This document shows, piece by piece, positions 11,915 through 57,579 of a stretch of 64,000 nt of DNA. The stretch comes from Solirubrobacteraceae bacterium (GTDB taxonomy: Bacteria; Actinomycetota; Thermoleophilia; Solirubrobacterales; Solirubrobacteraceae): assembly GCA_017882455.1 (NCBI GenBank), contig JADGPL010000007.1, positions 62,001-126,000 on the forward strand, written 5' to 3'. Below the pieces are notes generated by a model. The model saw only the letters and a list, made by a program, of their open reading frames with translations. It was not told the origin of the DNA and made no database searches. Position numbers and translations under genes: made by a program. Position 1 is the stretch's first letter. Each line of letters starts with the position of its first letter.

Positions 11915-12042
11915 CGCCGCCCAACGGTAGCCATCGGCGCCCGCGGGCATCCCGGCGGCAGGCTGACGGCCGTGCCAGCGCGGCCGCGCCTGCGCCCGAT
12001 GCCGGGTCGATCGATAGGTTCTTGCCCGACGAGGATGGACTC

Positions 12043-25664: not shown

Positions 25665-25682
25665 GCCGCACTGTGCGCGCGC

Positions 25683-26846: not shown

Positions 26847-26939
26847 GCGCGCTTGATGGTATGGGCGCCCGGCTTCGATCGGCGGGCCCCGGCCCGGCCC
26901 CCATGGTTCAGCCTCGCTCTGGCCCATAACATTGCGGCG

Positions 26940-27905
26940 ATGGACCTGAGCGGCAAGCGAGTGCTCGTCACCGGCGGGACGGGATTCCTCGGGGCCCGCG
27001 TCTGCGAGCAGCTGCGCGAGCGCGGTGCCGAAGTCCTGGCGGCAGGGCGGGCTGACGGGGACCTCACCGACAGCCGCGCCGTGACGGCCCTGCTCGCCCG
27101 CGCCCGTGCCCAGGTCGTCATCCACCTGGCCGCGGAGGTCGGCGGCATCGGCGCCAACCAGGCAAACCCGGGACGCTTCTTCTACGCCAACATGGCGATG
27201 GGCCTGCACCTGATCGAGCAGTGCCGCCACAGCGAGATCGAGAAGTTCGTGCAGGTCGGAACGGTCTGCTCATACCCCCGCGAGACCCCCGTGCCGTTTC
27301 GCGAGCAATCGCTGTGGGACGGATATCCGGAGGAAACCAACGCGCCCTACGGGATCGCCAAGAAGGCGCTGCTGGTGATGCTGCAGGCCTACCGCGAGCA
27401 GTACGGCTTTCCGGGCATCTATCTCATGCCGGCCAACCTCTACGGACCGGGCGACAACTTCGCGATCGCCTCGAGCCACGTGATCCCCGCGCTCATCCGG
27501 CGCTTCGAGCAGGTCCGCCGGGAGAACGCGCGCGAGGTCACCTGCTGGGGCTCCGGCGAGGCTTCACGGGAGTTCCTCTACGTGGAGGACTGCGCACGGG
27601 CGGTCGTGCTCGCCACCGAGCACTACAGCGACGGCGAGCCGGTGAACGTGGGGGCCGGGCGCGAGATCAAGATCCGCGAGCTCGCCGCGCTGCTCGCCGA
27701 GCTGAGCGGGTTCTCGGGCGCCATCCGCTGGGACCCCAGCCGCCCCGACGGGCAGCCGCGCCGCTCGCTCGACACGAACGCGGCCTCGGAGCGCTTCGGA
27801 TTCCGTGCGAGCACGCCCCTCGAGGACGGGCTGCGTGCGACCGTCGAGTGGTTTCGCCGTGAGGCTTACAGCGAGGAGCCGATCGCAGAGCTGGCGCCGC
27901 GGTGA
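26940..27905 (+). CDS. fcl: GDP-L-fucose synthase-like NAD-dependent epimerase/reductase
   Basis: 321 residues from ATG 26940. Extended short-chain dehydrogenase: VLVTGGTGFLGARV binds the cofactor; VGGIGANQANPGRFFYANMAM and GTVCSYP are strongly conserved in GDP-4-keto-6-deoxymannose 3,5-epimerase/4-reductases; the active-site tyrosine and lysine are in APYGIAKKAL (YxxxK). The C-terminal SREFLYVEDCARA and INVGAG-type (VNVGAG) motifs also fit the Fcl family. The reaction gives GDP-L-fucose from GDP-4-keto-6-deoxymannose; no GDP-mannose dehydratase (gmd) is in the window, so that gene must lie elsewhere if the call is right. It overlaps the next GT2 as GTGA. Confidence 0.85.
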   Translation: MDLSGKRVLVTGGTGFLGARVCEQLRERGAEVLAAGRADGDLTDSRAVTALLARARAQVVIHLAAEVGGIGANQANPGRFFYANMAMGLHLIEQCRHSEIEKFVQVGTVCSYPRETPVPFREQSLWDGYPEETNAPYGIAKKALLVMLQAYREQYGFPGIYLMPANLYGPGDNFAIASSHVIPALIRRFEQVRRENAREVTCWGSGEASREFLYVEDCARAVVLATEHYSDGEPVNVGAGREIKIRELAALLAELSGFSGAIRWDPSRPDGQPRRSLDTNAASERFGFRASTPLEDGLRATVEWFRREAYSEEPIAELAPR

Positions 27906-29380
27906 GCACACCGCTGATCACCGTGCTCGTTCCGCTGATCGACGCGCGCGGCGATGCCGCCGAGCACATCAGCTCGTGGACGCGCGGGCAGTCGCTGGCA
28001 CGCGAGCGCTACCAGGTGATCGTCGCCGCCCCACCAGGCGAGGAGGAGATGCGCCGGCGGGTGAGCGAGATCCTCGGCGAGGGCGATGAGCTGATCGTCG
28101 TGCACGAGGAGGGCCTCAGCCTGTATGACGCGGCCGCCGCACAGGCGGAGGCCGACTGGCTGCTTCCCACCGAGAGCCACTGCCTCGGCGCGCGAGACTG
28201 CCTCGCGGAGATCGTCGCGGCGATCGAGCGCGATCCCGGGCTCGAGGCGATGACGCTGGAGCACGGTCACGTGACGAGCACGGCCGTGGACAGACAGTGC
28301 GCTCGCTGGTTCGGCGACGTGTACGACATTTGGCGCCAGCCGGGAGAGTGGAAGCGCCTCAATCTCGTCGGCTTCGCGATACGCCGCGAGCTCTATCTCG
28401 CCGAGGGCGGGCTCGACGGACGCTTCGGGCTGTTCTCCTCCTTCGTCCTCGGGGCGAGGCTCGACCGGCGCGGCGTGCCGATCCCCCACCTCGCCTCGGC
28501 GCGGGTGGACCACGTCCACACCCACGGAATCCGTGCGCACCACGACCACGCCGCCGAGCACGCCTATCGGGAGTGCGACGCGAGGACCGTCTTCGACACC
28601 GAGTTCTGCGAGCGCTACTTCGGCTACTCGCACACCTGGGGAAACGCCGCCCGCTTCCGCGCCGAGGTGGCGCGCCCGACGGCGCTGGCGCTCGCGCGCT
28701 CGCTGCTGCGGGGCGCGCGCCGGCACGAGCACGCGCTGGCGGACCTCGGCCGCGAGCTGCTCGGCTGGATCGGTCCCGCGCTCGGCGGCGTGCGCCCGCA
28801 CCTCGCCGCGCGCAAGCTGCGGTTTCTCGCCACGGAGCTCGCAGCGGACCGGCTGCCGCTCCCCGTCGAGGTCAAGTTCGAGCAGTTCATGCAGGCGCTG
28901 CACGAGATCAGCGAGCTAACGCAGCTGAGGTGGATCCGAGAGCACGCCGACCCCCGCCTGGCTGCGCTCTCCGAGAGCGGGCGCCGGACGATCGGGGAGC
29001 TCGAGGGGGTCCTCGTCGCAACCCACGGGCTGGAGAGCCACGAGGGCCAGGCGTTCCGCTGGACCGAGCCCGCCTGCTCGATGCAGATCCGCACACCGGA
29101 GCGCGGGGGCGAGCTGCGCGTACGGACCGGGGGGCTGCGCGGCGCACCGCTGGACTACGTACGCGACGTCTACGTCGGCGCCCGGCGCGTCGCCCGCGAT
29201 CGCCTGCGCGAAGAGGACGAGGGCACACTCGTCATCCCGCTGCCCCGGGCACCCGGCCGTCGGCGCGCAGTGCCGATCTCGGTCATTTGCGAGCCACTGC
29301 TGCCCGCCCGCGACGGGTCGCTCGACAGCCGCCGCCTGGGGCTGCCTGTCTTCTCACTCGAGCTGGCCGCAGTGGCCTGA
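27902..29380 (+). CDS. Atypical glycosyltransferase family 2 with C-terminal beta domain
   Basis: 492 residues from GTG 27902. The start (LITVLVPLIDARGDAAEHI) follows the GT2 pattern, but the position of the DXD motif reads LLPTESHCLG, without a second acidic residue. The middle part has ELYLAEGGLDGRFG, as expected for the acceptor region. Residues ~240-370 are helical; the last ~110 residues (FRWTEPACSMQIRTP, TLVIPLPRAPG, RLGLPVFSLEL) form a beta-rich domain also seen at the ends of other GTs of this group. Metal-independent catalysis or a structural role is possible. It lies between the epimerase gene and a GT4, four bases before the latter. Confidence 0.7.
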   Translation: MSTPLITVLVPLIDARGDAAEHISSWTRGQSLARERYQVIVAAPPGEEEMRRRVSEILGEGDELIVVHEEGLSLYDAAAAQAEADWLLPTESHCLGARDCLAEIVAAIERDPGLEAMTLEHGHVTSTAVDRQCARWFGDVYDIWRQPGEWKRLNLVGFAIRRELYLAEGGLDGRFGLFSSFVLGARLDRRGVPIPHLASARVDHVHTHGIRAHHDHAAEHAYRECDARTVFDTEFCERYFGYSHTWGNAARFRAEVARPTALALARSLLRGARRHEHALADLGRELLGWIGPALGGVRPHLAARKLRFLATELAADRLPLPVEVKFEQFMQALHEISELTQLRWIREHADPRLAALSESGRRTIGELEGVLVATHGLESHEGQAFRWTEPACSMQIRTPERGGELRVRTGGLRGAPLDYVRDVYVGARRVARDRLREEDEGTLVIPLPRAPGRRRAVPISVICEPLLPARDGSLDSRRLGLPVFSLELAAVA

Positions 29381-29384
29381 GCCC

Positions 29385-30770
29385 GTGCCGGACGCGTCGG
29401 GGACCGAAGCGCTCGCGCCCGCCTCCTCCGCACGGGCGAGCCCCGGGCGTCTGCGCAGAGTGCTGATCGTCAACACCGCCGATGCGGGCGGAGGCGCCGA
29501 GCGCCAGGCGATGGCGCTCCTCGACGGCCTGCAGTCGGCTGGGGTGGACACGCACCTGCTGGTCGGCGCGAAGCACACCGACCACGAGCGCGTGATCTCC
29601 ATGTACGCGAGCCCACACGTCGACTATCGCCCCTACCAGCCGCGTCTGCGACGGAGGCTGACGCGCGCACGATGGCTGCTCGACCGCCGGCTCGGACGAG
29701 AGGACTTCGAGCACCCGCTCACCCGTCATACGCTGGAGATGGCGGGCACGCCGCCTGAGCTGCTGCTCTGCCAGAACCTGCACGGCGGCTACTTCGACCT
29801 GCGCATGCTGCCGGCGCTCTCGCGGCAGGCTCCGCTCGTGCTCTCGCTCAACGACTCCTGGCTGTTCACCGGCCACTGCGCCTGCCCGCTGGAGTGCGGG
29901 CGCTGGCAGAGCGGCTGCGGAAGCTGCCCCGACCTGGAGATCCCGCCCGCCGTCAGCCGCGACGCCACCGCCGCCAACTGGCGGCGCAAGCGCGACATCC
30001 TGGCGCACACGCGGGTCTGGGCGCTGGCGCCCACGCGCTGGATGCTCGAGCGGGCCAGCCGGTCGCTGCTCGGCCCCGGACTGCAGGGCGGGCGCGTGGT
30101 GGCGCATGGAGTGGACGTGCAGACATTCTCGCCCGGCTCGCGCTCGGCTGCCCGACAGGCACTGGGCCTCGACCCAGACGCGAGGATCCTGCTCTACGTC
30201 GCCAATCTCGGCGCCGCCAACCCGACGAAGGACTTCGCCACCCTACGCCGCGCGCTCGAGCGCGCGGCCCGCGCCGAACCCCCAGGCGGCGACCCCGGAG
30301 CAGATGGGCGACTCGAGCTGCTCGTCGTCGGAGCCGAGCAGCCACAGGAGCAGATCGCCGAGAGCGTCACCGTCCGCCACCTGCCCCACTGTGCCTCGCG
30401 CGACCGCCTGGCCGAGCTCTATCGCGCCAGCGACCTCTACGTCCACAGCGCGCGCGAGGAGTCCTTCTCGCTGACGACCGCCGAGGCCCTCGCGTGCGGG
30501 ATCCCCGCGGTGGTCGCCGCCGGAGGCGGCGTGGGCGAAGTCGTGGAGCATGAGCGCACCGGCCTGCGGCTCGAGGCGGGCGACGATGGGGCACTCGCCG
30601 CGGCCCTGCTGGCCCTGCTCGCCGACCCCGAGCGCCGCCGGCGTATGGGCGTGGCGGCAGCCGAGTCTGCGCGAGCGCGCTTCGACTCCCGGCGCAGCGT
30701 CGCCGAGACGCTCGCCTGGTGCGAACAGGCGGCGGGCGAGTGGGCCGATGCCCGTCCCGGACACCCCTAG
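29385..30770 (+). CDS. Glycosyltransferase family 4 (WcaI/colanic-type with Cys-rich loop)
   Basis: 461 residues from GTG 29385. GT-B fold: VLIVNTADAGGGAERQAMALL at the start; TKDFATLRRALERA, and in the donor domain HSAREESFSLTTAEALACG with the EX7E pattern. Between the domains the protein has SLNDSWLFTGHCACPLECG, GCGSCPDLEIP: the Cys-rich loop HCxxxxxCxxWxxxCGxCP of a well-known GT4 subgroup in exopolysaccharide clusters, perhaps metal-binding or structural. It ends with TAG sharing CTAG with the opposing NRPS stop. The last gene of a three-gene operon with the fucose-synthase-like gene. Confidence 0.86.
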   Translation: MPDASGTEALAPASSARASPGRLRRVLIVNTADAGGGAERQAMALLDGLQSAGVDTHLLVGAKHTDHERVISMYASPHVDYRPYQPRLRRRLTRARWLLDRRLGREDFEHPLTRHTLEMAGTPPELLLCQNLHGGYFDLRMLPALSRQAPLVLSLNDSWLFTGHCACPLECGRWQSGCGSCPDLEIPPAVSRDATAANWRRKRDILAHTRVWALAPTRWMLERASRSLLGPGLQGGRVVAHGVDVQTFSPGSRSAARQALGLDPDARILLYVANLGAANPTKDFATLRRALERAARAEPPGGDPGADGRLELLVVGAEQPQEQIAESVTVRHLPHCASRDRLAELYRASDLYVHSAREESFSLTTAEALACGIPAVVAAGGGVGEVVEHERTGLRLEAGDDGALAAALLALLADPERRRRMGVAAAESARARFDSRRSVAETLAWCEQAAGEWADARPGHP

Positions 30771-33700
30771 CCTTCGCCGCTGCGCTCCACGAGCTCCCAC
30801 AGAGGACGATCGCGATCGCCGCAGAGCTCGGCCGCGAGGCGCCTGTATCGCCCTATGAACGCCGCCACGCGGGTCGGGTCATACACGTTGGCGTCGAAGT
30901 CGGTGCGGCACTCATCCTGCTCACGCAGGCGATCCACGAAGAAGCAGAAGCCCGAGGGCATGTAGTGCTCCATCGTGTGCGTCGGCGGGCCGAGCTCCAG
31001 GCCCGCGAAGCGCAGCGGCGGGCGGGCCTCTTTGAGCGCGAACACGGTCTCGATCCCCGGTGGGCTCTTGCCCTCACGGGCGAGCTCCTCCATCAGCGTC
31101 TCGTAGGGCAGATCGGCGTGGTCGTTGACGTCGAGCACCTCCGCGCGCACGAGCGCCAGCCAGCCGCCGACCGTCACCTCGCCCGGTACGGTCAGCCGCA
31201 CGGCCGCCAACTGCGTGAAGCAGCCGAACATCCCGAGCGTCTCGCTCTGGCGGCGGGTGGTGACATAGGTGCCGAAGATGAGCTCCCGCTCTCCCGTCTC
31301 GGCCGCGAGCAGCGCGGCGTAGAGGGCCATGCGCACCATGTAGTAGGTCGCCCCGGCCTCGCGCGCCAGTTCGGCCAGCCCATCCGTGACCGCCGGCTGC
31401 AGACCCCAATGGATCACGCCCTCGCGCGGGTGCACGCCCGAGACCGGCGCCGGGCGCCTGAACGGTGGGGCGGTCGCGCGCTCGGCCCGCACCTCGCGCC
31501 AGCGCGCCAGCAGCCTGCTGTGACGCGGCCCTCCGCTCCTCATGCGCTCGCGCTGCCAGGCGGCCACGTCCCCGTAGCTCAGGGGAAGCTCGTCCTCCAG
31601 CGGCGGCGGCTCGCCGCCGCTCAGCGCTCCGTAGACCTGCGCGAGCTCGTTCATGAACATGCTCCACGAGGGCCCGTCGCAGGTGATGTGGTGCACCACG
31701 CGCAGTAGCTGATGCTCGCGCTTGCCCAGCCGCACGAGCGCGAGGCGCAGCAGCGGTCCTCGTTCGAGGTCGAAGAGCGCGCGTGCGAGCTCACGCAGGA
31801 TCGCGGCCGCACGCGCGGGCGGGTCGGGGTCCCCGCTCACGTCCAGCAGCCTCATCTCGGTGGCCCGGGCAGGCTCGATCACCTGCAGGAGGCGGCCGTC
31901 GCGCTCGGCGAAGGTCGTGCGCAGCGCCGGGTGACGGCGGATGAGATGGTCGTAGCTCCTGCGCAGCGCATCGCCGTCGAGATCGCCGCGGATCGCCGCG
32001 GCGGCGGCGAGCACCCAGCGGCGGGCCTCCTCTGGCACCTGGCAGTGGCGCCATATGCGCTCCTGGGCGAACGACGCCGGCTGGGGCTCCCCGGGCGGAG
32101 ACCCACAGAGCGGCGGATCTGGGCCTCCGCTGGCCGTGGCGCGCAGGCGCGCCACGAGCCCGGCGAGCCCGGCGATCGTCGGCTGGCACGCGTATGCGCC
32201 CATCCCAACCTGGATCCCGAGCGCGCTGCCCATCCCGACCGCCACCTCAGCGGCGGCGAGCGAGTCCCCGCCGATCTCGAAGAAGTCCTGCTCGCGGCCG
32301 AAGCCCTCGCGCCCGAGCACCCGTGCCCATAGCGCGGCGATCAGCTCCTCGGTCTCACCCGTGGGCATCGCGCGCGGCCGCTCCTCCGGCGCAGCCGAGT
32401 CGGCCAGGACGCGCTCAGGGGAGCGCATCCTCCTCAGGCCGGCTCGATCGAGCTTCCCGTGCGGAGTCAGTGGGAGCTCGTCCAAGAGCACGAAGCGCAC
32501 CGGCACCGCGTGATCGGGGAGGCGCTCGCGCAGCGCACCGCGCAGCTCGGCCGTCGAGGGCACCCGCTCGACGGTCGGCGAGACGTAAGCGACCAGCCGG
32601 GTCTCGCCCTCCTTGGAGTCATCCGCAAGGACCGCCGCACCGCCCACACCGGCCAGCCCCCCGAGCGCCGTCTCGACCTCCGCCAGCGACACGCGGTTGC
32701 CCCGGATCTTCACCAGGTCATCGACGCGACCGAGCACCGTCAGCAGACCATCCGCGTCGCGATATCCGAGATCGCCCGTACGGAAGAGGGCGGCCCCCTC
32801 GCCGTCGCCGTCGCCTTCGCCGGCGCCGGCGCCGGCGAAGCGCTGCGCCGTGAGCTCCGCCTCGCCCCAGTAGCCGGGCGAGAGATGGCGAGATCGCACG
32901 AAGATCTCCCCCATCTCCCCCGGCGCCGGCTCCGAGCCGTCGGGCGCGCGAAGCAGGACCTCGATGCCCTGCGCCGGGCGTCCGGCGGGCAGGGGCCCCC
33001 GGCGGAGCTTTGCCTCGCGGCCGATGATGTGCTGGGTGATGGCGCCGGTCTCGGAGGAGGAGTAGGTGTTGGCAAAGGCGCAGTGGGCCGGGAAGCGCGC
33101 GCGCCAGGCCTCGTGATCGCTCGCCAGCGCGCGCTCGGATCCCAGCCGCACGAGGCGGATCGCCGGCAGTCCGGCGTCATCGAGTACCGACAGGAAGCGG
33201 CGAAACAGGGACGCCGAGGCGATCAGCACCGTCACCCCGGTCTCCCGCAGCCACTCCGCGAGCCCGTTCATCCCGCACTCGTGGACCGGGAAGGGGCAGA
33301 GTGCCGCGCCGTTGAGCAGCGTGGTCCATACCGTTCCCGCGCCCTGGCCTCCGCTGGGCGATGCCAGCAGCACGATCCTGTCGTCGGCGCGCAGGCCGAG
33401 CCCGTTGCTGTGGCGCAGCACGTTGTGCAGGACGTTGCGGTGACTCTGGGCCACCGCCACCGGGCTACCGGTCGAGCCGGAGGTGCACATCAGCACCGCG
33501 AGATCGTCCGCCGCGATCGCGATCACGGGCGCCTCGTGGGGAGAGGCGTCCGGACGCTCGTCCACCACGAGCATCGACGAGTCGGCAAAGCCCGCAGCCA
33601 GCGCCCGCTCGCGCTGAGGATCGTCGGCGAGCACGAGCGTCGGCGCGGTGTCCTCGCGCAGGCGCGCCAAGCGGCTGGGCGGGTCGCCCGGGTTGAGCAC

Positions 33701-33964
33701 GACGACGATCGCACCGGCCTTCAGCACGGCGAGCTGGGCCGCCATCAGCGGCGCGTCGTGACGCATCAGCAGCGCCACGCGCTCGCCGCCAGCGACCCCC
33801 GCGTCGAGCAGCGCCGCGGCCAGCCGGTTAGACGCCGCGTCGAGCTCGGCGTAGGTTGGCTGCCAGGCGGTGCCCGCGATCGCCGGTGCACTCGGACGAG
33901 CCGCCACCTGGGCCTCGAAACACGCTGGGATCGAGGCGACGGTGTCGGCGAGCTGCCAGCTCAT
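30767..33964 (-). CDS. Nonribosomal peptide synthetase, A-T-C domain order
   Basis: 1065 residues, start ATG 33964 overlapping the preceding stop as ATGA. Adenylation domain (about 10-510): CTSGSTGSPVAV at ~160 (the usual Lys of SGTTGxPKG is missing), TYSSSETGA, FRTGDLGY, GRVDDLVKIRGNRVSLAEVE, and the catalytic lysine in PHGKLDR near 503. In the A4 region the Asp that holds the amino group of amino acids appears as Gly (SGGQGAG), so a substrate without alpha-amine is possible. Carrier domain: FFEIGGDSLAA with Ser near 566. Condensation domain (about 635-1060): HHITCDG near 755, intact. No thioesterase. The terminal C domain may release the product onto an amine or hydroxyl. It is last in a seven-gene operon of glycosyltransferases and oxidoreductases. 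Confidence 0.9.
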   Translation of the reverse strand: MSWQLADTVASIPACFEAQVAARPSAPAIAGTAWQPTYAELDAASNRLAAALLDAGVAGGERVALLMRHDAPLMAAQLAVLKAGAIVVVLNPGDPPSRLARLREDTAPTLVLADDPQRERALAAGFADSSMLVVDERPDASPHEAPVIAIAADDLAVLMCTSGSTGSPVAVAQSHRNVLHNVLRHSNGLGLRADDRIVLLASPSGGQGAGTVWTTLLNGAALCPFPVHECGMNGLAEWLRETGVTVLIASASLFRRFLSVLDDAGLPAIRLVRLGSERALASDHEAWRARFPAHCAFANTYSSSETGAITQHIIGREAKLRRGPLPAGRPAQGIEVLLRAPDGSEPAPGEMGEIFVRSRHLSPGYWGEAELTAQRFAGAGAGEGDGDGEGAALFRTGDLGYRDADGLLTVLGRVDDLVKIRGNRVSLAEVETALGGLAGVGGAAVLADDSKEGETRLVAYVSPTVERVPSTAELRGALRERLPDHAVPVRFVLLDELPLTPHGKLDRAGLRRMRSPERVLADSAAPEERPRAMPTGETEELIAALWARVLGREGFGREQDFFEIGGDSLAAAEVAVGMGSALGIQVGMGAYACQPTIAGLAGLVARLRATASGGPDPPLCGSPPGEPQPASFAQERIWRHCQVPEEARRWVLAAAAAIRGDLDGDALRRSYDHLIRRHPALRTTFAERDGRLLQVIEPARATEMRLLDVSGDPDPPARAAAILRELARALFDLERGPLLRLALVRLGKREHQLLRVVHHITCDGPSWSMFMNELAQVYGALSGGEPPPLEDELPLSYGDVAAWQRERMRSGGPRHSRLLARWREVRAERATAPPFRRPAPVSGVHPREGVIHWGLQPAVTDGLAELAREAGATYYMVRMALYAALLAAETGERELIFGTYVTTRRQSETLGMFGCFTQLAAVRLTVPGEVTVGGWLALVRAEVLDVNDHADLPYETLMEELAREGKSPPGIETVFALKEARPPLRFAGLELGPPTHTMEHYMPSGFCFFVDRLREQDECRTDFDANVYDPTRVAAFIGRYRRLAAELCGDRDRPLWELVERSGEG
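32801..32837 (-). repeat. Short GC-rich hexamer-like repeats inside the NRPS adenylation domain
   Basis: Simple repeats of the gccgtc and gccggc type run for about 37 bases. They encode the linker AGAGEGDGDGEGA between the A6 and A7 motifs. The run is in frame and adds a flexible acidic loop absent from typical adenylation domains; slippage here would alter the linker length or the frame. Confidence 0.6.
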
Positions 33965-35862
33965 CCGTAGACGACCTGAGGCCGGGTGTAGAAGTCGCGG
34001 TCGAAGCTGCCGTGCTCCGGAGGGCCCACCGCGGAGCGCTTCCAGCCGCCGAAGGGCACGTCGACCTCGGCGTCGGCCGTCGAGCGCTCGAGCTTGAGGA
34101 TGCCCGCCTGCGCCTGCTCGAGGAAGCGCCTGACCACGGCGGGCGAGCGGCTGAAGAGCGATGCGACGAGCCCCTGCTCGACGCCGTTGAGCAGCTCGAT
34201 CGCGTGCTCCCAGCCGTCCGCGGGCTGCACCACGAGCAGCGGGCCGAAGGTCTCGCGCTGCACGAGCTCGTGGGCGGGGTCCTCGCAGCTGACGATCGTG
34301 GGCGGATGCCAGGCCGCATCGATGCCCGCGACGGTGGAGCGCCCGTGCGGCACGACACACCGCAGGCCCGAGCGGCCGAGCATCTCCACGAGGCGCTCGC
34401 GCTGCTCGAAGCCCAGCATCGGCCCGACGCTCGTCGCCGGATCGAGCGGATCGCCCCACGCGAGCGCGGCGGTCTCACGCGTGAGCAGCTCGAGCAGCGC
34501 CTCGTGGCGGGAGCGCTCGACGACCACTCGACGGTTGGCCGTGCAGCGCTGCCCGGCGAGCACGAAGGCGCCCTGGGCGATCTCCCGAGCGGCGTGCTCG
34601 AGGTCCGCCTCGCTCCACACCAGCGCGCCGTTGTTGCCCCCGAGCTCGGCCTGCAGCGGGATCCGCCGCGCCGCGCAGATCTCCTGGGCGGCGAAGCCGG
34701 CCAGCGAGGAGCCCGTCAGGGTGACGGCGTCGATGCCCGGCGCCGACATCGCCAGCCGGGACTCCAGGCGATCTCCGCGGACGAGCTCCAGAACGCCCTC
34801 CGGCAGGCCGGCCTCGGCGAGGATCTCGGCCTGGCGCAGCGCGAGCCGATGCGCCGCGGGCGCGGGCTTCCAGAGGACGCAGTTGCCGTATGCGAGCGCC
34901 GCGGCGATCTTGCCGAGCGGGATGTAGATGGGGTTGTTCCAGGGCGTCACCACGGCCACCACGCCGAGCGCGCGCCTGCGCAGCCTGACGCCCGCGGTCA
35001 GCTCCTCCTCGCATGTGGACAGACAGCGGGCGACGATCGCGCGAACCATCTGCGCGGCGCGCCGGACCTCGCTCTCGCCGTAGCGGACGGGCTTGCCGAT
35101 CTCCCCTGCCATCCCGCGGGCGAGGCTCTCGGCTTGGAGCTCGAGCAGGCCGGCCGCACGCTCGAGGATGCTCGCCCGCCGCTGCGCGCCCGCATCCCGC
35201 CAGCCCCCCGCCGCAGCGGCGCAGCGCAGCGCGGCGTCCTCGACGCGCGCACGGGCGCGCTCGTCGGTCTCGCCTCCCGCAGCACCCGTGAGGCCGTCGA
35301 GTGCCTGCGCCGTGGAGAGGAAGCGCACGTCACGATCCTGCAGGTAGCGCCACGTCGCGGCCGCGTGCACCGGATCATCGCTCGTCACCGCGTCGTCGAT
35401 CACCCAGACCTCGCGCAGCCGCTCGCGCGCGTGCGTGCCGAGCGCGGCCTCGCGCACGCAGGCGTGGAGGTGGACGCCTGCGATCGCCAGGCGCTCGACG
35501 CCCAGCTCCTCCAGCGCGCGGTCGAGATCGCCGCCCGCGAAGGCGTCGAAGCCGCTCTTGTGGACCACCACCTCGCCCGCCAGCGGCTCAAGCCCCGGCG
35601 CCGGACGATGGCCCTCGGTGCCGTCCTCGCAGCGCCACAGGTCGCGGCGCCGCCAGTGGCGCATCCGCCTGTCCTCCTCGCGCGCAACCGTCGTCCAGAC
35701 GTGGATCACGGGGCGCGCTTCGCGGCGAAAGCCCTCGAGCAGCGCGCGCGCCCGCGCCACGACGGCTCCCGCAGATGGCTCGAGGCCGCCAAGCTCGAGG
35801 TAGTCGCGCTGCAGGTCGACGAGCAGCAGCGCCGACACCGGCCGATCCCCGAGCCCGCTCAC
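33961..35862 (-). CDS. Bifunctional protein: isochorismatase-type cysteine hydrolase fused to aldehyde dehydrogenase
   Basis: 633 residues from GTG 35862, which overlaps the upstream TGA as GTGA. Residues ~1-175 are a cysteine hydrolase of the isochorismatase/nicotinamidase superfamily: LLVDLQRDY (Asp), VVHKSGFDAF (Lys) and the nucleophile in GVHLHACVREAA (Cys135), all present; true isochorismatases lack the Cys, so amide or related hydrolysis is more likely. Residues ~195-633 are an aldehyde dehydrogenase: VVTPWNNPIYIPLGK, LTGSSLAG, ELGGNN (Glu) and GQRCTANRR (Cys440). Both active sites look intact. I know of no common fusion of this sort. The gene is coupled on both sides, to the dehydrogenase gene upstream and the NRPS gene downstream. 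Confidence 0.85.
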   Translation of the reverse strand: MSGLGDRPVSALLLVDLQRDYLELGGLEPSAGAVVARARALLEGFRREARPVIHVWTTVAREEDRRMRHWRRRDLWRCEDGTEGHRPAPGLEPLAGEVVVHKSGFDAFAGGDLDRALEELGVERLAIAGVHLHACVREAALGTHARERLREVWVIDDAVTSDDPVHAAATWRYLQDRDVRFLSTAQALDGLTGAAGGETDERARARVEDAALRCAAAAGGWRDAGAQRRASILERAAGLLELQAESLARGMAGEIGKPVRYGESEVRRAAQMVRAIVARCLSTCEEELTAGVRLRRRALGVVAVVTPWNNPIYIPLGKIAAALAYGNCVLWKPAPAAHRLALRQAEILAEAGLPEGVLELVRGDRLESRLAMSAPGIDAVTLTGSSLAGFAAQEICAARRIPLQAELGGNNGALVWSEADLEHAAREIAQGAFVLAGQRCTANRRVVVERSRHEALLELLTRETAALAWGDPLDPATSVGPMLGFEQRERLVEMLGRSGLRCVVPHGRSTVAGIDAAWHPPTIVSCEDPAHELVQRETFGPLLVVQPADGWEHAIELLNGVEQGLVASLFSRSPAVVRRFLEQAQAGILKLERSTADAEVDVPFGGWKRSAVGPPEHGSFDRDFYTRPQVVYG

Positions 35863-37001
35863 GTCCGCTCGAGCATGCTGGCGAGCTCCCGCGCGGCGGC
35901 CGCCGCGATCGCCTCGGCCATCGCGGACGTCCCCACACACGGCTCGCCCTCGCGCGCCAGATCTGCGGTCAGCATCCCCTGCTCCCACGCTCGACGCACG
36001 CCCAGTTCGCACGCATGCGCCTCGCACTCGAGGCCGAGGCTCTCGCGCAGCGCGCTCGCCATCGTGAGGACGTGGCCGACCGGGTTTGCGCCGTCGCGCC
36101 CCGCCAGGTCGTGGGCCGAGCCGTGGTTGGTCTGGTAGACGCCCTCGCCGAGCACCGTGAAGTTGGCCGAGAAGGAGATGCCGCGCGAGCCGAGTAGAAC
36201 GGCCGCGAGGTCGCTGAGCACGTCCCCGAACAGGTTCGACGCGGCGATCACGTCGAATGTGGCGGGCCGCTCGATCAGCCTGTAGGCCATCAGGTCCACG
36301 TCGACGGCCGCGCAGCTCACGCCATAGCTTGCGGCGGCGTCCTGCGCGGCCTCGCGCCACAGCTTGCTGAACGCGCTCATGCCGCCCTCCTTGACGACTA
36401 CGGTCAGCTCTCCGCGGCGGGCACGCGCGAGCCGCGCCGCCGCGGCCGTGAAGCGGCGCACGTGCGACTCGCGATGGGCGAGCTCGTGGCGGACTTCGCG
36501 GTCCTGGCTGCCCAGCGGGCGCTCCTCGGAGGCCCCCTGGTAGGCGCCGCCGAGGTTCTCGCGCACGACGAGCAGATCCACGTCCGCGATCAGGGCGGGG
36601 CGCAGGGGCGATGCGCTGGCGAGCGCGTTGCGCGCGCGGATCGGGCTGATCTTCAGGAACAGCTCGAGGCGACGGCGAAGCTCATAGACGTAGCGTCCTC
36701 CTCCCGGGCCGTTGAGGACCGCCCCCCCGCGGGCGAGGATCTCAGAGCAGAAGTCGACCGCCCGCTGCGGCGTGGCGCTCCCGAGCGCCCGCTCGGCCTC
36801 CATCCCGATCGGCCCTAGGTACGTCTCAAGGCTGACCGCGTGACCTCCGGCCCCTTCGAGCGCCCGCAGCACGAGCAGCGCGGCCGCCGTCACCTCCGGC
36901 CCCACGCCCTCTCCGGGGATCACGCCGAGCAACGGTACGGGTCGGCGCGGCTCGATCGACGGAGCGAGCAGGCTCTCGCGCCAGCCAGCCGCCTCGCTCA
37001 C
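35859..37001 (-). CDS. Isocitrate/isopropylmalate dehydrogenase family protein
   Basis: 380 residues from GTG 37001 (GTGA overlap with the upstream stop). Motifs of the beta-decarboxylating dehydrogenases are in order: LGVIPGEGVGPEV, ETYLGPIG, the GPGGG loop, VVRENLGGAYQG, VVVKEGGMSAFSKLW (catalytic lysine), DLMAYRLI and NLFGDVLSDLAA (metal-binding aspartates) and HGSAHDLAGRDGANPVG. The enzymes oxidise and decarboxylate malate-like hydroxy acids with NAD(P). The substrate-recognition helix (RRRLELFLKISPIR) differs from leucine-pathway LeuB, so the substrate is probably another. In this operon it more likely feeds the NRPS or hydrolase-dehydrogenase fusion than leucine synthesis; no leuCD genes are nearby. 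Confidence 0.82.
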   Translation of the reverse strand: MSEAAGWRESLLAPSIEPRRPVPLLGVIPGEGVGPEVTAAALLVLRALEGAGGHAVSLETYLGPIGMEAERALGSATPQRAVDFCSEILARGGAVLNGPGGGRYVYELRRRLELFLKISPIRARNALASASPLRPALIADVDLLVVRENLGGAYQGASEERPLGSQDREVRHELAHRESHVRRFTAAAARLARARRGELTVVVKEGGMSAFSKLWREAAQDAAASYGVSCAAVDVDLMAYRLIERPATFDVIAASNLFGDVLSDLAAVLLGSRGISFSANFTVLGEGVYQTNHGSAHDLAGRDGANPVGHVLTMASALRESLGLECEAHACELGVRRAWEQGMLTADLAREGEPCVGTSAMAEAIAAAAARELASMLERT

Positions 37002-39013
37002 GCCGCCACCTCTCCCGCCACGGCCATCCGCGCCGCCCCGGCCACCCGCTCGAAGAAGGCCTCGAGCTCGTCGATCCGCCGCTCCCAGGCGTACTCCTGG
37101 GCCGTGGCGATCCCGGCCTCGCCAAGCCGTCCACGCAGCCCGGGATCGGCGAGCAGGCGCGCGAGGGCCTCGCTGACGGCCGCTGTCTCGGGCGCGGGCA
37201 TCAGGCAGTTGACCCCGTCCACGCAGAAGTCGCGGTTGCCGTGCGCGTCGGTGCACACGACCGCCGCGCCGGTCGCCATCGCCTCGAGCGGCGGCAGCGC
37301 GAAGCCCTCGTGGGTCGAGGTCTGCACGAACACGGTCGCCTCTGAGAACAGCGCTCCGACCTGCTCGTCGTCGGGAGACTCCACGTAGCGCATGCCCGCG
37401 CCTTCGGCCAGCTCGGGCTCGATCCCGAACAGGCACAGCTCGGGGCGGGGCTCCTCCAGCGCCCGCCACGCGGCCAGCGTCAGCGGCAGGTTCTTCAGGG
37501 GGTTGGAGCGTCCCAGCGCGAGCACCATGTCCTCGCGCCGGCGCACCTCGGGGCGCGGGCGGAAGGTCTCGAGGTCGATGCCCGGCGGGATCAGCTCGGC
37601 GTCGAGCCCGAGCTCGCGCAGGCGCTCGCGGTTCCACTCGGAGATCGTCATGTAGCGGAACTCGGGACGGTAGGAGTCGAGCACTTCGTGACGGGCGCGC
37701 TCGTGGTCGGGGTAGTAGGAGGTCTCGATGTCCTGGACGAAGTACACGGGGATGCCGCGCGGGATGCTCGCCCGCCACACGTGGACGGCGGTCATCCACC
37801 AGGTGGCCACCTTGATCGCATCGACCTCGGCGAGCGCGCGCGAGAGCTCGTGGTAGTCGGGGAAGCTCCTCACGGGGATTTCCTCGGCCAGGGGGAACCA
37901 CCGCGGGCGCTCGCCCAGCGTGTACAGCGAGACCTCGTGCCCGCGCGCGGCCAGCCGGTTGAGGTGCTCGAAGATGTCGCGGTGCCCGCCCCCGACGCCG
38001 GTGTCCTCGGTCACGTAGACGATGCGCATGCGCCCGTCCTCCCGGCGCACTGTGCGCGCATCGAAGAACTCCGACCAGCGCCCCCAGAAGAGCTCCTGGG
38101 AGGAGCGCTCGCGCTCGCCCAGATCGGTGCCGCGCGTGAGCGACTCGTGGTGGATGAGCTGGGCGGCGGGGAAGTAGATGACGCGCAGGCCGGCCTGCCA
38201 TGCGCGCAGGCACCAGTCGACGTCCTCGTAGGCCATCCCGTAGCGCTCGTCCAGCAGGCCCACCCGCTCGATCACCTCACGCCGCACATACATGCAGGCT
38301 CCGGTCACCGCCAGCGCCGGGCTGGTCTGGTCGGCCGGGCCCCAGCCGGCCGGCTTGAAGCGGTAGCGGTGGTCGAACCACTGCGGCTGGTCGCGGTTGC
38401 GGACCGTGCCGCCGAACTGGATGCGCCCGTCGGGGTACTGCAGCTGGGCGCCCACGATGCCGATGTCCTCGTGGCGGTGGGCCGCGTACTGCAGGCACTC
38501 GAGCCAGCTCGGCAGCGCCTCGGTGTCGGAGTTCAGCACGACCACGTCGCGGTCCTCGGCGGTGGCCAGCAGGCCGCGGTTGACGTTGGCGGCGAAGCCC
38601 GCGTTCTGCTCGCCCACGATCAGCTCGTCGATGCCCTCGATCCGCCTGAGCGCCGCCACGTGCTCGAGCCCGCTGGCGTCGTCGGCCACGATCACCCTGG
38701 CCATGCCCCTGGCCACGGTCTTGCGGATGCTGCGCACGAGCGTGCGCACGTGCTCGGCGTCGCGGTAGCTCGGAATCACGATGTCAACGGGGCGAGCGTG
38801 CTCGCGATACCACTGCACCGCGCGCCTGAGCTCCTGGTCGCGCGCGTGCGTGCGCAGGCGCAGGCGGCGCTGCAGCGGCGTGAAGCGCAGCGGGAAGGTG
38901 AGCGCGCGGAACAGGATCGTGCGCAGGCCGAAGTACCTGTAGGTCAGGTGGATGCGGCGTCTCAGGTTCGAGAACGCGCCCTGCGGGCGACCCTCGGTCG
39001 GGCTCTGGCTCAT
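36998..39013 (-). CDS. Dual glycosyltransferase: GT2 plus GT4
   Basis: 671 residues. The first ~70 residues are basic and helical. GT2 domain (about 74-320): VDIVIPSYRDAEHVRTL, VADDASGL, NAGFAANVNRGL, VLNSDTEALPSW and MAYEDVDWCLRAW. GT4 domain (about 330-671): MRIVYVTEDTGVGGGHRDIFEHL, YFVQDIETSYY, GRSNPLKNLPLT, and TSTHEGFALPPLEAMA with the EX7E glutamates. This arrangement, with VYFVQDIE, is common to actinobacterial surface-polysaccharide enzymes that add two sugars in turn. ATGA/GTGA overlaps link it to the genes on each side. Confidence 0.86.
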   Translation of the reverse strand: MSQSPTEGRPQGAFSNLRRRIHLTYRYFGLRTILFRALTFPLRFTPLQRRLRLRTHARDQELRRAVQWYREHARPVDIVIPSYRDAEHVRTLVRSIRKTVARGMARVIVADDASGLEHVAALRRIEGIDELIVGEQNAGFAANVNRGLLATAEDRDVVVLNSDTEALPSWLECLQYAAHRHEDIGIVGAQLQYPDGRIQFGGTVRNRDQPQWFDHRYRFKPAGWGPADQTSPALAVTGACMYVRREVIERVGLLDERYGMAYEDVDWCLRAWQAGLRVIYFPAAQLIHHESLTRGTDLGERERSSQELFWGRWSEFFDARTVRREDGRMRIVYVTEDTGVGGGHRDIFEHLNRLAARGHEVSLYTLGERPRWFPLAEEIPVRSFPDYHELSRALAEVDAIKVATWWMTAVHVWRASIPRGIPVYFVQDIETSYYPDHERARHEVLDSYRPEFRYMTISEWNRERLRELGLDAELIPPGIDLETFRPRPEVRRREDMVLALGRSNPLKNLPLTLAAWRALEEPRPELCLFGIEPELAEGAGMRYVESPDDEQVGALFSEATVFVQTSTHEGFALPPLEAMATGAAVVCTDAHGNRDFCVDGVNCLMPAPETAAVSEALARLLADPGLRGRLGEAGIATAQEYAWERRIDELEAFFERVAGAARMAVAGEVAA

Positions 39014-40026
39014 CGTGTGGAGGGTTCCTCGTCGATCGGTGTCGGCTCGCCGTCCAGCTCCAGGGGGGCGTAGCCCGCGCGACCCTCGAGCGAGAGCCTG
39101 CGCCGGGCGCCCGCCGGCAGCCGGTCGGCGCGGGAGCCGAGCAGCGCCCCCGCGGAGCGCAGCACATGATGGCGAGCGACCGCCGCGAGTGCCTGCGCGA
39201 GGCGCACGCCGCCGAGGGCTTCGCCGGCCAGCTGCGCCCGCGCGCCCGCCAGCTCGCCGCGCAGGCGTGCCAGCTGGGCCGCCGAGGAAAGCGACTCGCG
39301 CCAGCCGTAGACCTCGAGCAGCCCGCGCCACTCGTCGAAGCAGCGGCGCAGCTCCTCGCCCGCGGTGTACTCGTGGGAGTGCAGCACCGCGGCCCCCGGC
39401 AGGAACGCCTTGGCGTAGCCGGCGCGGAGCATGTCGAGCGCGAGCACCCTGTCCTCGGCGTAGGCCACCTCCCGGAAGGGCACCCGCCGCCAGGCCTCAC
39501 GGGCGATGCAGGCGTTGGCGTCGGTGAAGAAGCCGCGCCGGCCGATGAGCTCGATCGCCGGACATGAGCGCTCGCTCTCTCCCAGCCGCTCCAGCTGCGG
39601 TCCACCATCCAAGGACAGCGAGGCGAACCACCGCTCCAGTTCCAGGCGCACGGGCATGGAGGCCTCGGGGCGTGGCCGGTAGGGGCCGTAGACGAGCGCC
39701 ACCTCCTCGCCCAGATCGAAGCCGGACAGGAGGCTCGCGAGCCAGTCCGCGGCCGCCGGCTCGGCGTCCTGGGTCAGCAGCGCCACGTGCTCGCCGCTCG
39801 CGGCCTCCATCAGGAGGTTGCGCGTGCCACCGTGGGAGAAGCCCTCGGGCGCGATCTCGAGCACGCGCGCGCCGTGCTCGTGGGCGAGCTCGGGCGATCC
39901 GTCGCTGGAGCCCGAGTCGCACACCAGCAGCTCGTGCTCGACGGTCTGGGCGCGAAGCGCCGCCAGCACGCCCGCGAAGCGCTCGCCGCCGTTTCGCACG
40001 GGGATGGCGACGGTGACCTCAGGCAT
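39010..40026 (-). CDS. Glycosyltransferase family 2 (RfbF/rhamnosyltransferase-like)
   Basis: 338 residues from ATG 40026. GT2 motifs: VTVAIPVRNGGERFAGVLAAL, CDSGSSDGSP, GFSHGGTRNLLMEAASGEHVALLTQDAEP and AYAEDRVLALDMLRAG; the SHGGTRN and TQDA segments are typical for rhamnosyltransferases acting on rhamnose-containing surface glycans. The C-terminal ~100 residues are helical. The start lies 8 bases inside the end of the upstream membrane protein gene, and the stop overlaps the next ATG. The donor is not established. Confidence 0.84.
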   Translation of the reverse strand: MPEVTVAIPVRNGGERFAGVLAALRAQTVEHELLVCDSGSSDGSPELAHEHGARVLEIAPEGFSHGGTRNLLMEAASGEHVALLTQDAEPAAADWLASLLSGFDLGEEVALVYGPYRPRPEASMPVRLELERWFASLSLDGGPQLERLGESERSCPAIELIGRRGFFTDANACIAREAWRRVPFREVAYAEDRVLALDMLRAGYAKAFLPGAAVLHSHEYTAGEELRRCFDEWRGLLEVYGWRESLSSAAQLARLRGELAGARAQLAGEALGGVRLAQALAAVARHHVLRSAGALLGSRADRLPAGARRRLSLEGRAGYAPLELDGEPTPIDEEPSTR

Positions 40027-42208
40027 AGAAGAACGTCAGGGTCAGCAGTTGCGAGGCGTAGCTGAGGGCGATCATCGCCACCGCCAGCACGACCCCGGCC
40101 GTGAGCATCCAGCGGCGTCCGAAGGCGTGCAGCGCGCCCACCACGAGGATCGCGACCGGGCCGATCGCGGGGAAGGCGTAGCGACCGAATTCGGCGATCA
40201 GGACGCGTGGCGCGGTGGTGAAGTAGGCGGCCTCGAAGCCCATGATCACGGCCACGGGCATCGCCAGCAGCGCGAGCAGCTCGAGCCGGTGGCGACGCAC
40301 CCAGCCCCACTCGCGCCGTGCCGCCCACACCCCGAGCGGGACCGTGAGCACCATCGCGAGGAAGATCAGCACGTAGAGCTTGTGCGGGAAGAACACGTCA
40401 TACCAGCCGAAGGCAGCCCAGCCGCGTTCGACGAAGATCACGAAGAAGGGGTCCTTGAACAGCAGGAAGCCGGCGTGCGTGGGCAGTGGGAAGTAGCGCG
40501 TCATGAACGGGAGCCGGGGCAACAGCGCCTGCCACAGATAGGACAGGTAGGAGGGGAGGTGGTGAAGCGCTTCGCTGGCCGCGCTCGCGTTGGAGCTGAT
40601 CGCGCCGGAGCCGGTGGCGCTCGCGACCGGTTGAAAGAGGCTGAGCACCTGGCTCGAGAGCAGCGCGACCGCCACCGCGCCCACCGCCGCCCCGATCCAC
40701 GCGAGCAGGTCGGAGCGGCTGTGGTGGCGCCACAGGGTCGCTGCGAACACCAGCACGGCCACCGGATAGAGCGAGAGCCCGGTGCCCTTCACGATCGGCA
40801 GCGCCACCAGCACCGCACCGGTGAGCACCCCCCACGGGATCGTGATCCCGCGGCGGAGCATGCGGATCAGCAGGAGCTCGAGCGCCGCCGCGGCCGCGTT
40901 GACGCCGACGTCGTTGTTGACGATCCCCGAGATGAAGCCGTACATCGGCTCGTAGGCCACGAGCAGCGCCGCGAGCACCGCCAGCCACGGTCTCCCCGGC
41001 GCGAGCTCGCGCGCGAGCAGGTAGGTGAACATCGCCACGAGCGCGCCGATCAGCGCGGAGACGATGCGCATCAGGGTCAGCTGGGAGAACACGGAGCTCC
41101 CGCGCGTGAGCAGATAGGCGGGCGAGAGCGCCAGGTAGTAGAGGGGGCCGTGCGCGGCCGACGTGGTGTAGCCGCCGCCGTCGTCGCGGCGCGGCCGAGT
41201 GCTCGCCACCTCGTGGGAGTACTCGCGCTGCACGGAGGCCAGCCACGGCAGGCGCGTGTCGCCGACCTGATGGTCGGTGAAGAAGCCGGTGTGTTCCAGC
41301 GCCAGGTTCTCCGCTCCCGACCAGCGGGCCAGCGGCGAGCCCGGATCGTGGCTCGGCCCTTCGCCGCGTTCGACCAGCGACTGCACGTAGGCGAAGTGGT
41401 CGACCTCGTCGGGACCCTGGAAGACGGGCGTGATCAGAGCCCAGCAGCAGGCGTTGAGAGCGGCTATCGCGAACAGCCACGCCGCCATTCGCCGGCCGCC
41501 TCCAGCGACCGCCAGCGCGAGGCAGCGCAGGGCCAGCAGCGCGATCGCGGGCAGCACCGCAAACAGCAGCAGCGGGTAGGTCCAGGCGCCGACGATGCCC
41601 GCACGGAACAGTGCGGCGCGCGAGAAGATCGCGCCGGCTCGCTGGAGATAGCTCTTCTGGCTCCCCGCCGGCGGCAGGTACCAGACGGCGATGCGCGCGG
41701 CCAACAGCTTGCCGTCGAGGGTGGGCGGGAGGATCGGGGGCTTGGACAGCGGCGTGCCCCCCCAGTTCACCGGCCCATCTGAGCTCACGCAGGCCTTGGC
41801 GCGAGTGGGTGCTTCGCCGGGACGTATCTCTGGAATCGGAAAATCGGCGTTGCTGGGCTTGTCGGGCGCTCCCTGAAGCGGTGGCAGGCTGAGTCCGATC
41901 GTGCGCCCATGCGCGGTGAGCGTGAACCGCAGGGCCGAGCGCGTCGGCGTGTGGAAGATCGCGCTGAGGCGGATGAAGGCGGTGCCCGCGGGCGGCTGCA
42001 GGCCGGGGACGCACAGTTGCGTCCCGGTCGTCGTCCTCTCTTCGTAGCTGAGCGCCTCGACGCTGTTGGTGCCCGCGTAGTAGAAGCGCGGGCGCACGCA
42101 GTAGTAGGCGGTCACAGCCACCAGCGGGATCGCCGTCAGCGCGGCCGCCCGCCACACACGGCGATCGCCGGCGAACACCGCCGCCATCATCCGGCGGACA
42201 TGGCCCAC
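40019..42208 (-). CDS. DUF2142-like polytopic membrane protein (GT-C fold)
   Basis: 729 residues from GTG 42208 (an ATG at 42190 is also possible). It begins with a membrane helix (AALTAIPLVAVTAYYCV), then a ~150-residue extracytoplasmic region rich in beta structure (LSYEERTTTGTQLCVPG), and then about eleven further helices. FQGPDEVDHFAYVQ, after the third helix, is the hallmark of the DUF2142 family and resembles the acidic catalytic loop of GT-C glycosyltransferases. Such proteins probably transfer sugars from polyprenyl phosphate outside the membrane. The next gene encodes a DPM1-like GT2 that could make that donor, which supports the pairing. Confidence 0.8.
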   Translation of the reverse strand: MGHVRRMMAAVFAGDRRVWRAAALTAIPLVAVTAYYCVRPRFYYAGTNSVEALSYEERTTTGTQLCVPGLQPPAGTAFIRLSAIFHTPTRSALRFTLTAHGRTIGLSLPPLQGAPDKPSNADFPIPEIRPGEAPTRAKACVSSDGPVNWGGTPLSKPPILPPTLDGKLLAARIAVWYLPPAGSQKSYLQRAGAIFSRAALFRAGIVGAWTYPLLLFAVLPAIALLALRCLALAVAGGGRRMAAWLFAIAALNACCWALITPVFQGPDEVDHFAYVQSLVERGEGPSHDPGSPLARWSGAENLALEHTGFFTDHQVGDTRLPWLASVQREYSHEVASTRPRRDDGGGYTTSAAHGPLYYLALSPAYLLTRGSSVFSQLTLMRIVSALIGALVAMFTYLLARELAPGRPWLAVLAALLVAYEPMYGFISGIVNNDVGVNAAAAALELLLIRMLRRGITIPWGVLTGAVLVALPIVKGTGLSLYPVAVLVFAATLWRHHSRSDLLAWIGAAVGAVAVALLSSQVLSLFQPVASATGSGAISSNASAASEALHHLPSYLSYLWQALLPRLPFMTRYFPLPTHAGFLLFKDPFFVIFVERGWAAFGWYDVFFPHKLYVLIFLAMVLTVPLGVWAARREWGWVRRHRLELLALLAMPVAVIMGFEAAYFTTAPRVLIAEFGRYAFPAIGPVAILVVGALHAFGRRWMLTAGVVLAVAMIALSYASQLLTLTFFYA

Positions 42209-42209
42209 C

Positions 42210-43388
42210 TCAGCGGCGGCGCAGACCGAGAATCGACAGCAGGAAGGAGGAGAAGAAGATCTGGATGCCCACGATCATCAGCGACGCCGCCACCATCGCC
42301 AGGCGTTCGTCTGAGAGCGAGCCGAATCCGTGCGAGATCCACGTCACCACGATCACCACCGCCATCACCACCCCCACGAGCAGGAAGGCTCCGCCGAGCA
42401 GCAGCCCGTGCTCGAGGCGAAAGCGCGAGCGCATGCGGTCGAACCACGGATCCTTCTCGCCCATGAAGTAGGTGCCGTAGGCATGGGCGCACAGGCCGAG
42501 CGCCAGGATCTGGGTTCCGACGATCATCAGCAGCGAGCCGCCGATCAGCGTGTGCAGCCCCCAGTCGCGTCCGAAGAAGTTGACCCCGGCGCCCACCACC
42601 ACCACGATCAGGGTGCCAACCCCGGCTAGCGCGGCTCCCGGGACGATGAACAGGTGGTTGGGGCTGTGGACGAGCAGGAAGCGAAGATGCCGCCAACCGT
42701 CGCGGAAGCTCGAGAGCTTGCTCTCGCCGCCGCGCGGGTGGTATTCGATCGGGAACTCGGCGATCTTGAGGTTCTCCTTGGAGGCCCTGATGACCATCTC
42801 GGAGGCGAACTCCATCCCGGTCGTGCGCAGGTCCAGGCGGGGGAGGACCTCGCGCCGCAGCGCGCGCATGCCGCAGTGGGCGTCCTTGATGCCTGTCCTG
42901 AAGAAGAGGTTGAGCAGGCCCGTGAGGATCGGGTTGCCCACGTAGCGGTGAAGCCAAGGCATGGCACCGGGCTGGATGTTGTCCATGCGATCCCCGATCA
43001 CCATCTCCGCGCCCTCCTCGAGCGCCGCCACGAAGCGGGGGATGTCGTTGAAGTCGTAGGTCAGATCGGCGTCGGCCATCACGATGTAGCGACCGCTGGA
43101 GGCCGCGAAGCCGGCGAGGTAGGCGCTGCCGTAGCCGCGCCTGCGCTCCACGATCACGCGCGCGCCGGCCTGCTCGGCCAGCCGCGCCGAGTCGTCCTCT
43201 GAATCGTTGTCGGCGACGACCACCTCGCCGGCCACGCCCATCCGCTCGAGGGCTCCGAGCGCCGCGGTCACGCAGCGCTCGATGTTCTCGGCCTCGTTGA
43301 GGCAGGGGATCACGACCGACACCAGCGGTGCCTTCGCGCCCTGCGGCTCGAGCGCTTGAGGGGAGCTTGTATGGGCGAGTGTGCTCAT
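42210..43388 (-). CDS. Polyprenyl-phosphate glycosyltransferase with C-terminal membrane anchor (GtrB/DPM-like)
   Basis: 392 residues. GT2 domain (~22-260): VVIPCLNEAENIERCV, VADNDSEDDS, GYGSAYLAGF and VMADADLTYDF (DXD). The last ~140 residues hold four hydrophobic helices, with HGFG and MGEKDPWF in the loops, like GtrB/ArnC-type enzymes. The reaction is transfer of a hexose from a nucleotide to polyprenyl phosphate. First gene of the leftward operon that includes the NRPS. Its 5' region (43389-43513) is shared with the divergent GT4 gene. Confidence 0.86.
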   Translation of the reverse strand: MSTLAHTSSPQALEPQGAKAPLVSVVIPCLNEAENIERCVTAALGALERMGVAGEVVVADNDSEDDSARLAEQAGARVIVERRRGYGSAYLAGFAASSGRYIVMADADLTYDFNDIPRFVAALEEGAEMVIGDRMDNIQPGAMPWLHRYVGNPILTGLLNLFFRTGIKDAHCGMRALRREVLPRLDLRTTGMEFASEMVIRASKENLKIAEFPIEYHPRGGESKLSSFRDGWRHLRFLLVHSPNHLFIVPGAALAGVGTLIVVVVGAGVNFFGRDWGLHTLIGGSLLMIVGTQILALGLCAHAYGTYFMGEKDPWFDRMRSRFRLEHGLLLGGAFLLVGVVMAVVIVVTWISHGFGSLSDERLAMVAASLMIVGIQIFFSSFLLSILGLRRR

Positions 43389-54320: not shown

Positions 54321-54351
54321 CAGCCGAGTCCGGGGTGGGTGGCGAGGAGAC

Positions 54352-56705: not shown

Positions 56706-56709
56706 GGCG

Positions 56710-57480: not shown

Positions 57481-57513
57481 AGCTGCGCAGGGTAGTGGAC
57501 GCTGCCCCGGGCA

Positions 57514-57579
57514 CTCAGCCCACATGCCCCGGGTGCTCAGCGCACATGCCCCGGGTGCTCAGCGCACATGCCCCGGGGG
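57514..57579. repeat. Three tandem 22-base repeats between the arylsulfotransferase and rfbF genes
   Basis: Copies start at 57514, 57536 and 57558. The unit runs from ctcag through cacatg to ccccggg; copies one and two differ by one base, and copy three by its last bases. A ten-base partial fourth copy (57582-57591) runs across the stop codon of the arylsulfotransferase-like gene, and a partial copy is visible near 57501-57513. Each has the core CCCGGG flanked by GCAC and GTGC. They lie 34-100 bases upstream of the rfbF start; the 22-base period would place sites on one face of the helix, as in an operator array, but a simple duplication is also possible. Confidence 0.85.

Follow-up and report, generated by a model that had tools for sequence, protein, structure and literature searches.

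The 64,000-nucleotide stretch of a Solirubrobacteraceae genome that we analysed (the window) raises the question of what an NRPS is doing in a run of glycosyltransferase genes, and whether it takes part in making the glycan. The run consists of seven ORFs, all on the minus strand, that span 30767–43388 (ORFs of the window and Pfam). It opens with a DPM/AglJ-like polyprenyl-phosphate GT2 (42210–43388; Pfam and synteny), whose top NCBIfam match, TIGR04182, falls below that family's cut-off at 170.6 bits. This is followed by a membrane protein (40019–42208; synteny), by a GT2 glycosyltransferase that belongs to a conserved operon (39010–40026; Pfam and synteny), and by a dual GT2-GT4 glycosyltransferase (36998–39013; Pfam and family genomes), which is the last gene of that operon. 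Pfam confirms the GT2 and GT4 domains in the glycosyltransferase genes. The remaining three genes, which we call the cassette or the trio, encode an IPMDH-like beta-decarboxylating dehydrogenase (35859–37001, 380 aa, GTG start; Iso_dh 214.5), a fusion of a cysteine amidohydrolase of the isochorismatase fold to an aldehyde dehydrogenase, or ALDH (33961–35838, 625 aa, GTG start; Isochorismatase 108, Aldedh 335), and an A-T-C NRPS (30767–33964, 1065 aa; AMP-binding 198.6 bits, AMP-binding_C 44, PP-binding 38.7, Condensation 203.3). In addition to Pfam, we used a tree, residues and a predicted model for the dehydrogenase, residues and a model for the fusion, and motifs and an alignment for the NRPS.

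An earlier note had described seven tightly packed leftward genes with ATGA and GTGA overlaps, and we found all of the ORFs, coordinates and overlaps as claimed. Four of the six junctions overlap by 4–8 bp (40019/40026, 39010/39013, 36998/37001 with GTGA, and 33961/33964 with ATGA), and the remaining two are gaps of 1 bp and 20 bp. Because the genes overlap, the run is probably cotranscribed. A scan for terminator-like and sigma-70-like sites found none within the run, although such a scan says little for a high-GC actinobacterium. The domains behind the note's gene labels hold up with Pfam, and "hydrolase" can be refined to a cysteine amidohydrolase domain, but we had to drop the label "DUF2142" for the membrane protein, which matches no Pfam family, even at E<=5, and no NCBIfam family. 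It has about 11 hydrophobic, TM-like segments and is possibly a polytopic, GT-C-like protein.

The run joins two units. One is a GT operon conserved in the family, the other a rare cassette of three genes. Of 146 family genomes, 23 have the GT2-GT4 gene, with identities of 83% and 81% in two species of the same genus. The order of the GT genes is kept in eight of the nine relatives examined (L138 is the exception), and the gene once labelled DUF2142 is unmatched in the more distant of these nine. In relatives, 10–30 bp separate the end of the GT operon from a convergent Wzm-Wzt exporter; the stops of GT2-GT4 and Wzm nearly meet, with Wzt next to Wzm, in G022 and G018 (closest) and in G527, which is from another genus. 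The window has a Wzt-Wzm type polysaccharide ABC exporter on the plus strand (21771–24013; Pfam, adjoining the GT operon in relatives), but here GT2-GT4 and Wzm stand 13 kb apart. The locus resembles other Wzm/Wzt-exported polysaccharide loci in its GT operon beside an ABC exporter, a pairing conserved within the family; it differs from them in carrying a 12.95-kb insert with the NRPS cassette between the two. The same slot holds a methyltransferase in one relative (L133) and further GTs in another (L139); both are present in L138, whose arrangement is different. Since its contents differ among relatives, we regard the slot as a variable site of the polysaccharide locus. Elsewhere in the window, sugar-nucleotide genes at 52876–57525 (an epimerase, an rmlC-like epimerase, a C-methyltransferase with Methyltransf_13/14 and a nucleotidyltransferase) suggest a branched or C-methylated deoxysugar, and a gene for an arylsulfotransferase-family (ASST) protein adjoins them (57583–59406).

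The insert (24057–36997) was not found at this site in relatives. It has eight genes: two GT2 (24126–25664 and 25683–26570), an NAD epimerase (about 26950–27905), a 492-aa protein with no Pfam match and a weak GT2 hint at E 0.035 (27902–29380), a GT4 (29385–30770) and the trio. None of the insert genes scanned matched a transposase family. A repeat search found a 12-bp direct repeat, TCACGCCGCCAC, with two copies in the window, one at each end of the insert. The right copy (36998–37009) covers the final codons of GT2-GT4 and its stop (V-A-A-stop when the opposite strand is read), and the left copy (24045–24056) is 31 bp past the Wzm stop, where relatives have the GT2-GT4 stop. Shuffled sequences hold 0.04 copies of the 12-mer per window, and 10 of 200000 random control trials brought a second copy of a 12-mer to within 100 bp of an unrelated point. 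We read the block as an insertion with a 12-bp duplication or micro-homology. The GTG start of the IPMDH-like gene lies inside the repeat, which is thus the source of the GTGA overlap with GT2-GT4.

We found no hydrolase-ALDH fusion in the other genomes of the family that were searched (146 in all). From this absence and the separation of Wzm from GT2-GT4, we concluded that an insertion brought the trio to the GT operon; loss of the trio in every other family genome would be far less economical. In its codon usage the trio falls within the range of the host, so recent acquisition is not arguable from composition, and we dropped composition as a sign of foreign origin. The earlier note had assigned the trio to the glycan pathway and had named gene order in related genomes as a check. 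That assignment loses its footing here: the linkage to GTs is peculiar to the window genome, where the insertion made it, and the trio is absent from the other family genomes searched, even those with the same GT operon. The link of the trio to glycan genes is real in the window genome, but recent and not general.

Could the NRPS be a glycan acylation module all the same, its C domain transferring an acid to the exported polysaccharide, at an amino sugar or a hydroxyl? The GTGA overlap would couple translation of the cassette to that of GT2-GT4, and the insert brings five further glycan genes and sits between the GT operon and the Wzm-Wzt exporter. The methyltransferase or extra GTs that relatives have in the slot also speak for such a role, as does the host-like codon usage. 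Carrier-bound acids N-acylate a surface sugar in Vibrio cholerae O1, where the sugar is perosamine, and this may serve as a precedent by analogy. Against it stands the absence of the trio from all other family genomes searched, and more weight comes from the cassettes of other genomes.

The core of the cassette is found in 13 genomes from at least three phyla (Thermoleophilia, Verrucomicrobiota and Planctomycetota). A class-wide scan gave one further full hydrolase-ALDH fusion, in G429 (52%), where the order matches the window: IPMDH-like gene, hydrolase-ALDH fusion, then an A domain. Five loci turned up when we scanned 84,980 species genomes with a two-sequence IPMDH alignment, using motifs peculiar to the cassette IPMDH; they are from Thermoleophilia, Verrucomicrobia, Planctomycetota/Phycisphaeraceae and an unplaced bacterium. 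Seven more came from scanning Planctomycetota (6 of 294) and Verrucomicrobiota (3 of 388), and the plasmids searched held ordinary LeuB relatives only. The IPMDH-like gene adjoins the hydrolase-ALDH gene across the cassette loci, in L144 divergently and one gene apart. In L095 and L153 the ALDH stands alone, so the hydrolase domain is not essential everywhere; L141 is cut within the hydrolase. An NRPS is adjacent in 7 of the 10 loci with long enough flanks (contig ends limit the view in L094, L098 and L141), and its layout varies: A-T-C in L095, A-T-TE in L097 and L153, A-T-C-TE in L144, and A-T with an unmatched tail in L152. Because the same ordered trio occurs in distant phyla, we consider the IPMDH-like enzyme, the hydrolase-ALDH fusion and the NRPS to be one functional unit. 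The trio is apparently a rare, mobile cassette. We found no description of it, or of the gene combination, in the open-access papers searched; it is real, conserved and new in those sources.

The only other Thermoleophilia cassette (L063/L096; JADLHW010000164, Thermoleophilia SJ49) is on a 4.2-kb contig and is nearly sibling-close to a Phycisphaeraceae sequence from the same project (branches 0.12 and 0.14). That contig may be misbinned. Misbinning is excluded for the window cassette by its position inside the GT locus of its genus. A PhyH-like Fe(II)/2-oxoglutarate dioxygenase occurs with the cassette in several Planctomycetota and Verrucomicrobiota (L140:11454–12443, L144:7504–8490, L152:11224–12237, L153 about 9287–9613, and contig 585 of G924); we rejected it as part of the core here because it is absent from the window genome. 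What looked like a triple IPMDH-hydrolase-ALDH fusion in L142 came from the choice of ORFs, as the frames differ, and was dropped. L143 has a second, distant isocitrate/isopropylmalate dehydrogenase gene (12019–13635), 3 kb from its cassette.

No NRPS adjoins the dehydrogenase pair in three loci (L140, L142 and L143), and the pair may therefore have a product of its own. Taken further, these loci would favor a catabolic or anaplerotic pair with which the NRPS is loosely associated. We think that this is very improbable, given that an A-domain enzyme is adjacent in most of the loci that could be evaluated and is always of the type that lacks Asp235 (see below).

Among the neighbours scanned at the other loci there was no GT beside the cassette. 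The genes found there are unrelated to glycans (complex I genes, a MoxR ATPase, kinases, peptidases, a desaturase and similar), so the linkage of the NRPS to glycan genes does not recur at any other cassette locus examined. The A-T-C form also occurs in L095 without GTs, TE replaces C elsewhere, and a full-text literature search for NRPS in polysaccharide loci returned nothing relevant. With these points against it, we judge glycan acylation rather unlikely as the role of the NRPS. The cassette may help to decorate the surface sugar of this bacterium, but its place in an insertion, and its presence in distant bacteria with no sugar genes next to it, keep this no more than a possibility.

The stand-alone cassettes of Verrucomicrobiota and Planctomycetota fit with a free small metabolite (a signal, a siderophore or a furanone-like oxo-acid product) that is unrelated to the polysaccharide, in which case co-transcription with the GT genes would be accidental. 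The TE-terminated enzymes of L097 and L153 and the C-TE ending in L144 point the same way, and the A-T-TE enzymes are the model for a free product derived from an oxo acid. However, the window enzyme has a terminal C domain and no TE and would need an acceptor, and we found no transporter or regulator accompanying the cassette. We regard this explanation as somewhat unlikely.

What would the cassette make? The 13 cassette dehydrogenases form a single clade with 100/100 support, apart from 16 LeuB-like sequences. They share with LeuB (PF00180; TIGR00169) the fold, the catalytic Arg/Tyr/Lys/Asp set, the NAD-site Asp (12 of 13) and the HGxAxD motif, and the predicted model of the window enzyme matches the IPMDH fold (Z 41.0, 2.3 Å rmsd, 33% identity to 6xxy). 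They differ in their separate clade and in a rebuilt substrate pocket, and the window enzyme scores well below the leuB cut-off (194 vs 353 bits for TIGR00169). The equivalents of catalytic Arg94, Arg132, Tyr139, Lys185, Asp217, Asp241 and Asp245 are kept in all 13. LeuB Arg104 is lost in every one, with Ser, Val, Thr or Asn instead, and Leu90-Leu91 is always Val-Tyr (Val105-Tyr106). Asn102 has become Lys117, and a new Arg (Arg103) precedes the specificity helix. The residues that are invariant in the 13 and differ from the references are R103, V105, Y106, K117, G207, R273 and Q290-T291. Judged by their sequences, the cassette enzymes are a new subfamily with catalysis residues intact and the substrate pocket rebuilt, and we infer that they oxidatively decarboxylate a malate-type acid bearing a polar or charged substituent.

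In the fusion, the Asp-Lys-Cys triad of the hydrolase and the Glu and Cys of the ALDH are conserved wherever the respective domain is present. The hydrolase model has its top match, at Z 22.4, to the maleamate amidohydrolase NicF (3uao; 2.6 Å rmsd, 179 aligned), and its nearest structures are maleamate amidohydrolase, RutB and biuret hydrolase. Fold scores alone cannot tell amidohydrolases (Z 22) and VibB-type isochorismatases (Z 20.5) apart, but the Cys can. Isochorismatases of the EntB/PhzD type have Gly in place of the nucleophilic Cys; the fusion has Cys at this position (GVHLHACVR), which speaks against that identity. Since the triad is kept, the domain is a predicted cysteine amidohydrolase and should cleave an amide. 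It is like NicF, RutB and biuret hydrolase in its isochorismatase fold and triad, and unlike them in being fused to an aldehyde dehydrogenase, with 18–27% identity.

The NRPS has AMP-binding, PP-binding and Condensation domains in A-T-C order, with the GGDSL motif of the T domain and the HHxxxDG motif of the C domain intact (HHxxxDG is absent from the C domain of L144). The whole genome has only one other Condensation locus, a weak one at 33.5 bits. Compared with NRPS single modules of the A-T-C or A-T-TE type, the cassette enzymes have the same domain order and T-domain Ser, and the window enzyme has HHxxxDG; they differ in having no Asp235, no partner modules and a terminal domain that varies (C, TE or both). 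At the position of GrsA Asp235 the window A domain has Gly, and all seven cassette A domains have Gly or Ala. In the five aligned A domains, the Pro of YGPTE is replaced by Ser or Met, a Pro (A5) that is also missing in many acyl-CoA ligases. Asp235 holds the alpha-amino group of the substrate (reviews; PMC11355689, PMC11253843). Ala or Gly is found at 235 in A domains for alpha-hydroxy acids, and an alpha-keto-acid A domain lacks both Asp235 and the A5 Pro (PMC11253843). McyG activates Phe without Asp235 (PMC11253843), and the absence of this residue excludes only the usual alpha-amino-acid mode. StsA and EnSynA1, A domains for alpha-keto and alpha-hydroxy acids, are similar in having a small or hydrophobic residue for Asp235 and no A5 Pro, and differ in that the window enzyme has no ketoreductase domain (PMC11253843). 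With Gly or Ala in place of Asp235, the cassette A domains probably load a non-amino acid, and an oxo or hydroxy acid from the dehydrogenase would fit.

On balance, we lean slightly towards a cassette that makes, activates and transfers an unusual short oxo- or hydroxy-acid and that was captured here by a polysaccharide locus. The IPMDH-like enzyme would oxidise and decarboxylate a malate-type acid other than isopropylmalate, and the amidohydrolase-ALDH fusion would free an amide and oxidise an aldehyde of that compound or its precursor. The acid so made, which is most likely a 2-oxo or 2-hydroxy acid, would then be adenylated by the A domain and carried on the T domain until the C domain (TE in other genomes) passed it to an amine or alcohol. 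The order of these steps is not fixed by the data. The 12.95-kb insert would have brought the cassette to its place behind the conserved GT operon and beside the exporter, and the cassette is probably co-expressed with that operon. The earlier proposal that the trio makes the acid that the NRPS loads survives in part: the unit is conserved in distant phyla and Asp235 is missing, and we grade the supply of the acid as plausible. The fuller claim of an undescribed minimal-NRPS family that acts on a non-amino acid and was captured by a polysaccharide locus here, with the C domain acylating the glycan, seems to us distinctly unlikely.

If our preferred reading of a captured acid cassette is true, the trio would represent a rare family of gene clusters, spread over Thermoleophilia, Verrucomicrobiota and Planctomycetota, that makes an uncharacterised acid, and its dehydrogenase would be a new, directly assayable specificity in the IPMDH/ICDH family. 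The locus would also show clearly how a polysaccharide operon can take up a metabolite cassette, and it would make glycan decoration by an NRPS testable.
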